Shown here: positions 21,497 through 25,437 of the stretch, piece after piece
How positions within the stretch are numbered: position 1 is the first letter of the stretch
Layout: each line of letters begins with the position of its first letter
From: Selenomonadales bacterium
GTDB taxonomy: Bacteria > Bacillota > Negativicutes > Sporomusales > UBA7701
Reading direction: 5' to 3'
Assembly (NCBI GenBank): GCA_029975165.1
Contig: JARKPR010000071.1
Coordinates: 1 to 39,449 of the forward strand
Length of the DNA stretch: 39,449 nucleotides
Made by a program: the position numbers and the translations under genes
The notes under the pieces: model-generated
What the model saw: only the letters and a program-made list of their open reading frames with translations
Databases searched by the model: none
What the model was told of the DNA's origin: nothing

Positions 21497-22603
21497 TCAC
21501 AGCGCTTTCGGTTTGGCGAAAATCATGCGGCCGGCCGCCGTTTGCAGCACCGACGTCACCAGCACGCCGATGGTCTCGCCGATATGGCGCTTGCCGCCGT
21601 CGACGACGATCATCGTGCCGTCGTCCAGGTAGGCCACTCCCTGGCCGAATTCCTTGCCGTCCTTGACGACGTGCACGACCATCTCTTCGCCGGGCAGCAC
21701 GACCGGTTTGACCGCGTTGGCCAGCTCGTTGATGTTGAGCACCGGCACGCCCTGCAGTTCGGCGACTTTATTGAGGTTGTAGTCGTTGGTCACGATCTTG
21801 CCCTTGACCAGTTGGCCCAGCTTGACCAGCTTGGAGTCCACCTCGGCGATGTCGTCGAAGTCGCGGCTGTCGATCTGGACGTACATCCCCAGTTCCTTCT
21901 GGACGCGGTTGAGGATGTCCAGGCCGCGGCGCCCGCGGTTGCGTTTCAGCAGGTCGGAGGAGTCGGCGATATGCTGCAGCTCTTCGAGGACGAACCCCGG
22001 GATGAGCAGCGTGCCCTCGATAAAACCGCTTTTGCAGATGTCGGCGATCCGTCCGTCGATGATGACGCTCGTGTCGAGGATCTTGTACTGGGCGATGTTG
22101 GAAGCCTTATCCTTGCCTTTGTCCCTGCTGAGCCACGGGACCATGGCGAAGAGGCTGAACAGCTCTTCCCGCTTGCGGATGGCTACGTTGATGCCGATAT
22201 AGCCGAGGACGATGCTGATTATGCCGGGAATATATTTGCCAACTATGGGGATCGGCAGGAATGCGGAACCCAATAAATTAGAAATTATAAGTCCGACGGC
22301 TAAACCCAGGGAACCGGCGATTACGTCGTACACAGGCATCTTGTTCAGCCTGGCTTCCACCCAGTAGGTGAACTGCCATAACCGTTTGATGATGAAGGGT
22401 GCCAGCAGGTAGCCGATGAATCCGCCCACCGCCGCGCCGAGGGCGAAGGATACGATGGTCGCGACGGTTATGCCGAAGATGCCGTAGCGAAGCAGCTCGG
22501 GATTGACGAAGGTCGCCAGGATCGGGATGATGCGGTCGGCTAAAACCAGTCCGGCCACTGCTGCAAGGACCGTGATCACGAATCTTAGGGCCTTATCAAG
22601 CAA
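21497..22603 (-). CDS. YacL-type membrane PIN/TRAM domain protein
   Basis: 368 aa. Four hydrophobic segments in 1-145, then a PIN ribonuclease-like domain (about 177-290, with acidic residues in ILDTSVIIDGRIADI, EELQHIAD, TNDYNLNKVAE) and a TRAM RNA-binding domain (about 295-352). The domain order is that of Bacillus YacL, of unknown target. Start is TTG at 22603, with GGAGG 7 nt upstream. First gene of the yacL-ispDF unit. Conserved position between disA/carD and ispD. Confidence 0.94.
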   Translation of the reverse strand: MLDKALRFVITVLAAVAGLVLADRIIPILATFVNPELLRYGIFGITVATIVSFALGAAVGGFIGYLLAPFIIKRLWQFTYWVEARLNKMPVYDVIAGSLGLAVGLIISNLLGSAFLPIPIVGKYIPGIISIVLGYIGINVAIRKREELFSLFAMVPWLSRDKGKDKASNIAQYKILDTSVIIDGRIADICKSGFIEGTLLIPGFVLEELQHIADSSDLLKRNRGRRGLDILNRVQKELGMYVQIDSRDFDDIAEVDSKLVKLGQLVKGKIVTNDYNLNKVAELQGVPVLNINELANAVKPVVLPGEEMVVHVVKDGKEFGQGVAYLDDGTMIVVDGGKRHIGETIGVLVTSVLQTAAGRMIFAKPKAL

Positions 22604-23341: not shown

Positions 23342-23371
23342 TTGACAATGACGGAACGGTGTTTATATAAT
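23342..23371 (+). promoter_or_regulatory. Sigma-A promoter of the 131-aa gene
   Basis: TTGACA (23342-23347), 18-bp spacer, TATAAT (23366-23371), divergent from the carD promoter. Confidence 0.9.
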
Positions 23372-23396: not shown

Positions 23397-23792
23397 GTGG
23401 ATGACAAGTGTTGCGAGGAATTCCAGACGACGGTGGACGAGTGCCTCATCCGCCATCGCAGCGTTCTCGATGTTCTCACCAAATACCAGGAAGCGTCGGC
23501 CCGGGTCAACCGCGCCTTCGCCAAAGCCGTCACCGAATGCGGCTGCGTGGAAATCAAGGCCGGCCGCCAGCAGGCGCCAGCCGAAACCCAATACAGCGAC
23601 CTGAAGAACTTCGTCTCCTCCCACCTCTCCGGCGAGCCCTGCGATCACTGCAAGGAGGTCATCGTCAACGAGTTGGGGCGCAGCCTGTTCTACATGGCGG
23701 CACTGTGCAACCTCGCCGGACTCGACCTCGGCGAAGTGCTGCGCCAGGAGCATCGCAACATCACCACTTTGGGCATCTTCCACCTGTCATAA
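23397..23792 (+). CDS. Conserved clostridial protein of unknown function
   Basis: 131 aa, helical, cytosolic, with seven Cys: CCEEF near the N-terminus, ECGC in the middle and PCDHC at about 82-86. The CxC and CxxC pairs suggest a metal or redox site. I recall close relatives next to carD in Moorella-type clostridia (sometimes labelled DUF1573-containing), with the same RHRSxLDVL...ARVNRA and GRSLFYMAALCN blocks. Starts with GTG at 23397, AGGTG 8 nt upstream. It has its own consensus promoter and terminator, divergent from carD. Confidence 0.8.
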   Translation: MDDKCCEEFQTTVDECLIRHRSVLDVLTKYQEASARVNRAFAKAVTECGCVEIKAGRQQAPAETQYSDLKNFVSSHLSGEPCDHCKEVIVNELGRSLFYMAALCNLAGLDLGEVLRQEHRNITTLGIFHLS

Positions 23793-23803
23793 CGGTTGGC
23801 CAG

Positions 23804-23834
23804 AACCGCCGCGGAAGCGCGGCGGTTTTTATTT
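23804..23834 (+). terminator. Intrinsic terminator after the 131-aa gene
   Basis: 10-bp perfect stem AACCGCCGCG/CGCGGCGGTT (23804-23813, 23818-23827) with loop GAAG and a T-run. Confidence 0.93.
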
Positions 23835-23884
23835 TGCCTGCGGCCCTTGCTAACATAAACTTTGCCGGTTAAGGACACGCTAGA

Positions 23885-23915: not shown

Positions 23916-25073
23916 ATGACCCGCATTGCCGTCATCCTGGCGCTTCTCCTCTGCATCGCCGCTCCGGCTGCTGCGGCGGAGCCGTTCACCGGCCCCGAGC
24001 TCAGCGACGGCTATATGACCGTAGTCGACGAAAACGGCCGCGTCATCCTGGAAACCGGCCTGGCCGTCCACCCCGGCGACGGGTTCGTCGCCGCGGACAA
24101 CCGTTTCTACGAGGTGCGGGCGGTCGAAGGGACGCTCGCCAGGGCCCGCTTCGTCCGCGACGAGCCGCCGCCCCTGGCCGCCATGTCCAGGCCTGTCCAG
24201 GCGCCGGTGCCGCCCGACATCCTGCCGGGGCCGCCGGCCGGCAGCCCCGCCGAGCCGGCTAGGATAGAGCCGCCCAGTCCGGCCCCGCCCAAGCAGCTTG
24301 TCGCCGTCTACTACACCCATAACGACGAATCGTACATCCCCACCGACGGCGCGGCGACCATCCCCGGGAACGGCGGCATATACCGCGTCGGCGACGCGTT
24401 CGCCCAGCGCCTCGTCGCCCTCGGCTACGCGGTCGAAAACGACCAGACCCGCCACGACCCCCACGACGCCAACGCCTACCAGCGTTCGCGCCGCACCTTC
24501 AAACGCCTGCTCGAGCAAAGCCCGGCCACCCTGTTCGACATCCACCGCGACAGCGCGCCGCGCAGCGCCTATCAGCATGCAATCGACGACCAGCCGGTCG
24601 TCAAGCTGCTCCTCGTGGTCGGCCGCCAGAACCAGAACCGCGAGGCCACCATGAACTACGCCAAACAGATCAAGGCCGCCGCCGACGGCAAATATGAGGG
24701 CCTTATCCGCGGCATCTTCATCGCCCACGGCAACTACAACCAGGACATGAACCCGCAGGCGATGCTCGTCGAGTTCGGCACCCAGTACAACACCCGCGAG
24801 GAGGCCGAACGGAGCGCCGCCCTGTTCGCCGACCTCGTGCCCCTCTTCCTCGCCCCGGCCGCAGCCGGCCCCGCCGCCGGTACCGCAGACCCGCCGCCGG
24901 CGCCGCCCGGCGGGTACTGGCGCGACATCCTCACCATCGCCGGCTTCCTGGCCGCCGGCATTGCCGGCTTCCTGTTCGTCAGCACCGGCAGTTGGCGGGA
25001 AGCCAAACGGAAGCTGGCCCGCTTCCGCCGTTTCGAATTCGTCAACTTCCTCGGCAGAAAGCGCAAAGACTGA
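23916..25073 (+). CDS. SpoIIP-type N-acetylmuramoyl-L-alanine amidase
   Basis: 385 aa. Signal peptide 1-21 (cleavage near AAA-EP), a small N-terminal beta domain (31-80), a Pro-rich linker (84-126), the SpoIIP amidase domain (127-315) and a C-terminal membrane anchor (about 337-357). Zinc/catalytic residues: His135 in YYTHNDESY, His210 in FDIHRDS, Glu286 in MLVEFGTQYNT. SpoIIP cleaves stem peptides from glycan during septal thinning and engulfment in sporulation. Atypical: the anchor is C-terminal, after a secretory signal, and the N-terminal domain recurs in the next gene (residues 50-100). ATG at 23916, GCGAGG upstream; the next gene follows after 16 nt. Confidence 0.85.
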   Translation: MTRIAVILALLLCIAAPAAAAEPFTGPELSDGYMTVVDENGRVILETGLAVHPGDGFVAADNRFYEVRAVEGTLARARFVRDEPPPLAAMSRPVQAPVPPDILPGPPAGSPAEPARIEPPSPAPPKQLVAVYYTHNDESYIPTDGAATIPGNGGIYRVGDAFAQRLVALGYAVENDQTRHDPHDANAYQRSRRTFKRLLEQSPATLFDIHRDSAPRSAYQHAIDDQPVVKLLLVVGRQNQNREATMNYAKQIKAAADGKYEGLIRGIFIAHGNYNQDMNPQAMLVEFGTQYNTREEAERSAALFADLVPLFLAPAAAGPAAGTADPPPAPPGGYWRDILTIAGFLAAGIAGFLFVSTGSWREAKRKLARFRRFEFVNFLGRKRKD

Positions 25074-25089
25074 CAGGGAGGGACCGGCC

Positions 25090-25437
25090 GTGGTCGCCAA
25101 ACGGCAGCTGTTCATCGTCATCGCCGTCGCCGCCTTGCTCGTCGGCGGCCTCGTGGCTTTCGGGCTGCTCCACCTGCTGCCTTTGGGCCTCCTGCCCATC
25201 CAGCAGAAACCCGAACAGGCGCCGCAGAAGGCGCACGACTACTATATCATCATCGACGAGGAAAACGGGCGTACGCTCATGACCGTCCCCATCGTCGCCA
25301 GCGTCGGCGACGAACTCATCACCGACGAGAACAAACGCTACCGCGTCGTCAGGGTGGAAGAAAACCGGGCTTACGCCCGGTTCGTCGAAAACGTCGATCT
25401 GCAAAAATACCGTCAGGAAGAAAAAAAGAAGGAATAG
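25090..25437 (+). CDS. Small membrane protein sharing a domain with the SpoIIP-type amidase
   Basis: 115 aa. One N-terminal transmembrane segment (about 7-30), then a 50-residue domain (50-100: YYIIIDEENGRTLM...VGDELIT...YRVVRVE...AYARFVEN), then a charged KE-rich tail. The domain aligns with residues 31-80 of the upstream amidase with conserved D-E-N-G-R, GD, N-x-x-Y-x-V and AR-F-V. Start GTG at 25090 with GGGAGG 8 nt upstream; it lies 16 nt after the amidase and is surely cotranscribed. It ends 10 nt from the convergent disA with no visible terminator. Likely acts with the amidase at the membrane (inference). Confidence 0.8.
   Translation: MVAKRQLFIVIAVAALLVGGLVAFGLLHLLPLGLLPIQQKPEQAPQKAHDYYIIIDEENGRTLMTVPIVASVGDELITDENKRYRVVRVEENRAYARFVENVDLQKYRQEEKKKE

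Follow-up and report, generated by a model that had tools for sequence, protein, structure and literature searches.

The DNA analysed here, referred to as the window, is the whole stretch of 39,449 nucleotides that makes up positions 1–39,449 of contig JARKPR010000071.1 from a Selenomonadales bacterium. Its forward strand carries a pair of genes separated by 16 nt (25073 to 25090). The first (23916–25073, +) encodes an amidase of 385 aa that was assigned to the SpoIIP type from PF07454, TIGR02867, and its position in a tree; because it bears an additional domain, it is called SpoIIP-B here, a label of our own. The second (25090–25437, +) starts with GTG and encodes a small, single-pass membrane protein of 115 aa. 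The amidase opens with a predicted signal sequence (residues 1–21; 23916–23978, +), whose boundary was placed by eye with the aid of an AF2 helix at residues 2–14 and hydropathy. A five-stranded domain (residues 29–82; 24000–24161, +), delimited by BLASTP, profiles, and AF2, is followed by the SpoIIP catalytic domain (residues 124–307; 24285–24836, +) with the motifs H-x-D-E (H135), D-x-H-R-D (H210), and L-x-E (E286). AF2 and hydropathy place a C-terminal membrane helix at residues 334–357 (24915–24986, +), which leads into a basic helical tail. The small protein consists of an N-terminal membrane helix (residues 2–29 in the AF2 model; 25093–25176, +) and a second copy of the five-stranded domain (residues 49–101; 25234–25392, +), the latter again delimited by BLASTP, profiles, and AF2.

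According to Pfam, the pair is flanked by CarD, PIN-TRAM, and IspD genes on one side and by DisA, RadA, and ClpC genes on the other, RadA and ClpC having been identified by domain hits and gene order. A terminator-like stem of 12 pairs with a T-rich tail (23802–23829, +) closes the unannotated gene immediately upstream and separates it from the putative amidase operon. A sigmaF/sigmaG-like promoter follows at 23853–23882 (+), composed of ACATA (23853–23857), 15 nt, and GGACACGCTA (23873–23882), and scores 11/13. The unannotated upstream gene (23397–23792, +; ~131 aa) is preceded by a perfect sigmaA promoter match (23342–23371, 12/12) and has relatives at 23 of 46 loci, a set that included both pair and lone loci; its best Pfam match had an E of 0.16, and one relative had no Pfam match at all. 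A sigmaA-like site of at least 10/12 precedes this gene in 19/22 loci (2.7 expected).

The catalytic domain (residues 124–307) scored well above the family thresholds, with 185 bits against a cut-off of 24.4 for PF07454, and the amidase reached 165.1 bits against 123.15 for TIGR02867. Across 22 aligned members, H135, D137, E138, the D-x-H-R-D motif around H210, and E286 are invariant, and H135 and H210 are 75 residues apart. For Clostridium difficile SpoIIP, two essential histidines are described, H142 and H222 (PMC6221140). Judged by motif and spacing, H135 and H210 may be their counterparts. The nearest solved folds that Foldseek returned for the amidase model were Amidase_3-type enzymes, namely AmiB–EnvC (8c0j, E 6.8e-6), CwlD–GerS (7rag, 1.4e-5), and LytH–ActH (7tj4, 3.9e-4).

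Homology of the two domains

The initial annotation had proposed that the amidase and its neighbor have a domain in common, and a profile comparison of the two copies was set beforehand as the refuting test. In a single-pair BLASTP comparison, residues 22–82 of the amidase aligned with residues 40–101 of the small protein (20/62 identical, 32%; E=1e-8). A profile of 31 domain-bearing amidases, drawn from 30 pair loci plus the other copy in the window's own genome, matched that of 30 small proteins in hhalign (probability 98.8, E 1.4e-16, 53 columns); with the 30 pair amidases alone the probability was 98.7, against at most 4.0 for 50 column-shuffled small-protein controls. The AF2 models show five strands in the same order in the amidase (34–37, 43–47, 56–59, 63–71, and 74–82) and in the small protein (52–56, 62–66, 75–77, 82–90, and 93–101), with mean pLDDT values per ten-residue block of 85–94 (residues 31–80) and 89–95 (residues 51–100), respectively. 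In an alignment of 22 domains of both kinds, G26, D27, and A47 are invariant, and Y5, Y37, A49, and R50 are nearly so. At the level of sequence and predicted structure, the homology of the two domains is confirmed. The competing explanation, an ordinary SpoIIP paralogue beside an unrelated small membrane protein with a similarity born of chance or low complexity, draws on the shortness of the domains (~52 aa) and their modest pairwise identity, but is refuted for practical purposes by the profile match with its shuffled controls, the common strand order, and the invariant residues.

Neither Pfam nor NCBIfam has a family that passed its threshold over the region common to the two window proteins, the sole overlapping weak match being to EcoRI (PF02963; E 0.091; 12.3 bits, where 22 are required). 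Searches of Pfam with 25 small homologues gave a best E of 0.013 (DUF4330, 3/25), and a PDB sequence search with the domain profile yielded a single chance-level match (E 0.59). Structural comparisons with the shared domain returned a weak best E of 0.061 from Foldseek and, from VIA, a best Z of 6.7 (rmsd 2.0 over 52 residues, to MrfA), which is below the stated trust level. These matches, mostly to ribosomal proteins, MrfA, and MnmA, were rejected as indications of a known family or fold. A new fold is not claimed, a missing match proving nothing.

SpoIIP-B as a branch of the SpoIIP family

The genome that contains the window (4.19 Mb in 100 contigs, 96% complete) encodes three SpoIIPs: one on contig C11 that has no five-stranded domain and comes after a gene read as gpr, a domain-bearing one on C20 that adjoins a gene read as DUF1614-like, and the window amidase. 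It also holds four SpoIID-family matches (contigs C36, C26, C68, and C2) and one SpoIIM match; co-occurrence with these partners and with a canonical spoIIP, a check suggested with the original proposal, is therefore observed in the genome itself.

A tree computed from the catalytic domain only and read as unrooted, with the window protein included, separates 46 domain-bearing rows by a 100/100 branch from 34 canonical ones, of which 19 come from genomes beyond the class. The window amidase is not among the canonical, gpr-linked SpoIIPs, and the 16 pair-type rows group together with 100/98 support. Two earlier trees built without the window amidase agree with this result, namely a quick one of 81/117 rows (a random subsample plus all phylum-wide canonical rows) and a careful one of 79 rows from which the long or partial sequences L171 and L093 had been dropped.

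The separation extends to membrane attachment. By hydropathy, a C-terminal membrane helix is present in 60/60 domain-bearing and 0/51 canonical SpoIIPs. An N-terminal hydrophobic stretch was found in 60/60 and 43/51, respectively, values that were taken on stop-to-stop frames and at the N terminus may include bases before the true start. The helix and hydropathy counts show the predicted build of SpoIIP-B to be a signal sequence, the five-stranded domain, a linker, the amidase domain, a second linker, and a C-terminal anchor. The secretory signal and C-terminal anchor first noticed on the window amidase are thus borne out by hydropathy and model, the anchor as a branch-wide trait. The suspicion that the domain is foreign to classical SpoIIP held as well, as it occurs in 0/31 canonical SpoIIPs in the class and 0/20 across the phylum.

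The small protein or its domain has a match in 54 of the 200 class genomes, and SpoIIP is present in 55; compared by eye, the two lists coincide except for G095 (72% complete). The search of wider genomes with a domain profile, proposed at the outset, found matches in 201 of 299 phylum genomes, all 201 of them SpoIIP-positive, against 254 genomes that match PF07454. At least two SpoIIPs are present in 197/201 domain-bearing genomes and a single one in 4/201. Exactly one is found in 47/53 SpoIIP-positive genomes without the domain, and two in the other six (G206, G218, G251, G266, G270, and G460). According to the description of TIGR02867, most spore formers reportedly have two SpoIIP-family members. 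The domain lies N-terminal of SpoIIP in 29/29 phylum loci outside the window's own genome; these loci of the second type (L065–L093) were fetched by the domain, and this figure is no measure of its frequency in SpoIIP, the frequency among SpoIIP genomes resting on the 299-genome counts. Judged from these comparisons, the domain is an N-terminal module and the hallmark of an apparently old second SpoIIP branch, with a reach beyond this gene pair. Of the original idea of a domain tied to the pair, its presence in both proteins stands, and its confinement to them gives way to the phylum-wide distribution.

Outside the class, the small-protein profile matched open frames shorter than 200 aa in at least four genomes (G411, G387, G200, and G349), and stand-alone small proteins look rare there among the matches listed. 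One genome, G006 (96% complete), has the small protein and one SpoIIP match, with no domain-bearing SpoIIP found; the latter may be missing from the assembly because the small gene is at the very edge of its contig (L133).

Promoter-like sites and gene neighborhoods

Upstream regions were scored against GYATR-N17/18-CATNMTA, taken as the sigmaF/G consensus, and against sigmaE and sigmaA consensus strings. A site of the form GYATR-N14/15-GGNCATNMTA scored at least 11/13 within the 130 nt before the pair amidase in 17/21 loci, compared to 0.4 in shuffles, with the qualification that the motif was first spotted by eye, that its GG extension was derived from these same upstream regions, and that, because the loci are related, promoter hits here and below are not independent and expectations are no significance tests. 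The plain consensus without GG was found at a score of at least 9/11 in 17/21 loci (4.8 expected). The window site scores 9/11, or 11/13 with GG, its mismatches being the first -35 base and one -10 base. With a single spacer allowed, 14 and 15 nt gave 7 and 10 matches in 21 loci, and 13, 17, and 20 nt gave 6, 6, and 5; given the matches at other spacers, the promoter spacing is not sharply defined.

No site of at least 11/13 was found before the control genes disA (0/21), radA (0/19), ispD (0/22), and CarD (0/15) or the unannotated upstream gene (0/22). The same was true of the small gene inside the operon (0/20), of SpoIIP itself within its other cluster (0/19), and of IspH-S1 (0/10), YIEGIA (0/9), and DUF512 (0/14). 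Where no amidase is present, the small gene is immediately preceded by such a site in 4/9 loci, each time at 12/13 (expectation 0.12 at 11 and 0.00 at 12); lone small genes elsewhere show no excess (1/11, 0.34 expected). Since the site precedes the amidase gene and is missing from the small gene's own upstream region, the two proteins are probably made together; a single sigmaF/G-type promoter-like site probably drives both genes in the forespore. SigmaE and sigmaA promoters were rejected for the pair, their scores being equal to those of shuffles. The first sigmaF and sigmaG patterns, which were poorly chosen, were also discarded (12.0 compared to 11.2 and 11.9 compared to 11.6 in shuffles).

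Before canonical spoIIP, the sigmaF/G-like site occurs at the expected level (1/30, 1.08 expected), and a sigmaE-like site of at least 13/15 is present in 12/30 (1.6 expected). The sigmaF/G-like site also precedes DUF1614 in 6/16 loci (0.16 expected), and DUF1614 likely heads the other SpoIIP-B operon. Counting against the promoter reading, the PIN-TRAM gene (21497–22603, -), which was meant as a control, also scores: its upstream region has the sigmaF/G-like site in 14/23 loci (L095–L118; 0.36 expected) and scores for sigmaA too (7/23, 1.7 expected), and the PIN-TRAM protein is possibly under developmental control.

Neighboring genes were called by a longest-frame rule, which missed the window pair and the window's upstream open reading frame, and neighbor-gene clusters were named from one representative each. 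The small gene lies beside a domain-bearing SpoIIP gene on the same strand in 30/30 class loci, which were chosen as the top 30 matches to the small protein of the window. Of 24 disA-locus records (L094–L118 without L117), 20 have both genes, and four have the small gene without the amidase (L110, L111, L114, and L116). At loci L131–L136 the small gene stands alone at a CarD/RadA locus; five of these are amidase-free (L131, L132, and L134–L136), and L133 ends at a contig end, with upstream DNA too short to exclude an amidase. Searches by tblastn with the window amidase and with pair-type, second-type, and canonical catalytic domains found no catalytic domain at ten lone-small-gene loci and recovered it at three control loci; stop-to-stop frames were also checked. 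The amidase-free loci suggest that, within the class, the amidase gene was either inserted or lost.

Other arrangements of the small gene were also seen. Lone paralogues of the small protein (L122, L123, L125, and L130) lie near clusters of an ArsR-type regulator and a heavy-metal P-type ATPase, named from L122 representatives, and perhaps reflect a further role of the domain under metal stress. In Sporomusa malonica and G103, a further domain-bearing SpoIIP gene elsewhere is again followed by a small gene (L117, 4977–5195; L128), for which the called frame is 73 aa and the start looks disturbed.

Twenty loci of the other domain-bearing SpoIIP, one of which (L148) is poorly called, cluster with DUF1614 (16/20), DUF512 (14 loci), DUF3189 (11), and YIEGIA (9), with a Der-like GTPase in 15/20 and an IspH-S1 fusion nearby in 12/20.

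The domains of the small proteins score on average 61.0 bits against 29 phylum-wide SpoIIP-B domains, compared with 44.1 bits for the 30-row profile of their own operon partners and 44.9 for second copies from the class, a thin profile of five rows with two identical sequences. The window's small protein scores 37.4 bits against the C20 copy and 26.4 against the neighboring amidase. The small protein's domain thus resembles other SpoIIP copies at least as much as it does that of its operon partner, and it is not a recent copy of its neighbor's domain.

Possible role of the pair and comparison with known systems

With a probability of roughly 0.6, we infer that SpoIIP-B is a forespore-side amidase subfamily and that the small protein, as a stand-alone copy of its docking domain, is the likely partner. 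In this model, SpoIIP-B would have been duplicated into the disA locus in Negativicutes, ahead of the gene for a protein that appears to be little more than a membrane helix and the same domain as the amidase. Both genes would be expressed in the forespore, and canonical spoIIP has sigmaE-like, presumably mother-cell, sites. The signal and the C-terminal helix predict that the amidase's domains lie outside the cytoplasm and its basic tail inside; the domain of the small protein would likewise be outside, with its basic N terminus inside. Taken together, these topologies would have both domains facing the same way from a shared membrane, probably that of the forespore; tethered there, they would occupy the space between the two cells. 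The stand-alone domain may bind SpoIIP-B, or the same docking site, and in this way the small protein could position or gate the amidase as it cuts peptidoglycan from the forespore during engulfment. For a domain carried by two membrane proteins that are expressed together, a direct meeting, or one common site, would be the simplest function. The stronger form of the initial proposal, an obligate two-component amidase, is weakened by the loci with the small gene alone (4/24 plus five), which make such an enzyme less likely, and by the lack of special closeness between partner domains.

The main rival is ligand binding without contact. The domain would be a module for peptidoglycan, lipid, or another envelope component, the two proteins would bind independently and never touch, and the small protein would serve the forespore envelope as a structural element or an anchor. 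Such a module would account for a small-protein domain that is not specially close to its partner's, and the amidase-free loci and lone paralogues point to uses of the small protein's own. However, the genes remain adjacent and on one strand in all 30 of the best class loci, with a promoter-like site before the amidase only, and no match of sequence or fold to a known ligand-binding family was found in Pfam, PDB, or Foldseek searches, a negative that says little either way. Binding without contact is a serious possibility on this evidence, with perhaps half the likelihood of the partner model. It is less probable still that the small protein is an inhibitor or decoy that occupies the SpoIIP-B docking site (e.g., on SpoIIM or SpoIID) and limits recruitment. 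Stand-alone copies of docking domains can act in this manner, and the two domains are predicted to project from the same side of one kind of membrane; yet the small gene comes after the amidase at a 16-nt gap, as for a subunit gene, and helper and inhibitor are not separated by any result here.

Models of engulfment usually assume one SpoIIP, which works from the mother cell, and Bacillus subtilis has one SpoIIP. A broader and distinctly tentative scenario for endospore formers would have two ancient and differently anchored SpoIIP branches, a canonical one made by the mother cell and SpoIIP-B made by the forespore, cut septal and engulfing peptidoglycan from both sides, with the diderm Negativicutes having doubled SpoIIP-B under a tethered copy of the docking domain. 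If the second branch is forespore-made in many endospore formers, B. subtilis would be the exception and a part of the machinery would have escaped notice. Comprising one domain, two proteins, and one probable operon, the pair is a compact system in which this question can be tested. The domain itself can serve as a sequence signature for annotation, as it has no Pfam or NCBIfam model at cut-off in the window's two proteins.

Searches of the open-licence literature found no description of the domain, the gene pair, the topological split between branches, or the stand-alone domain protein; the domain, the branch split, and the stand-alone protein go unmentioned in the accessible portions of PMC7924749, PMC3533761, PMC6221140, PMC5898192, PMC9600426, PMC3789822, PMC7438776, and PMC12700454. 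The idea of a forespore SpoIIP is itself not new, since Bacillus anthracis is cited in PMC3789822 as having two spoIIP genes split between sigmaF and sigmaE, and the likeness to the genomes considered here is one forespore-type and one mother-cell-type spoIIP per genome. A neighborhood of SpoIIP with YIEGIA/yphB and arCOG02159, the last of which we take to correspond to DUF1614, is also in print (Biochimie 2015, PMC5898192). Many other SpoIIP-B copies lie within it, with DUF3189, DUF512, and the Der-like GTPase nearby; in the portion of that report available, the N-terminal domain, the second SpoIIP branch, and the stand-alone domain protein are not mentioned, and the window pair sits elsewhere, by disA–radA–clpC.

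Compared to SpoIIP as defined by PF07454 and TIGR02867, the engulfment amidase of the DMP complex, the window protein has a catalytic domain above both cut-offs, with H135, D137, E138, the D-x-H-R-D motif, and E286 invariant in the aligned members, and domain-bearing copies are likewise confined to SpoIIP-positive genomes. To the canonical form, SpoIIP-B adds the N-terminal five-stranded domain, the C-terminal membrane helix, a forespore-like promoter, and a separate branch. The AmiB–EnvC, CwlD–GerS, and LytH–ActH complexes resemble the window amidase as its nearest solved folds, and each was solved with a separate partner protein. To our knowledge, none of these partners carries a domain homologous to one on its amidase. 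The window pair differs from them in that the small protein and the amidase have a homologous domain.
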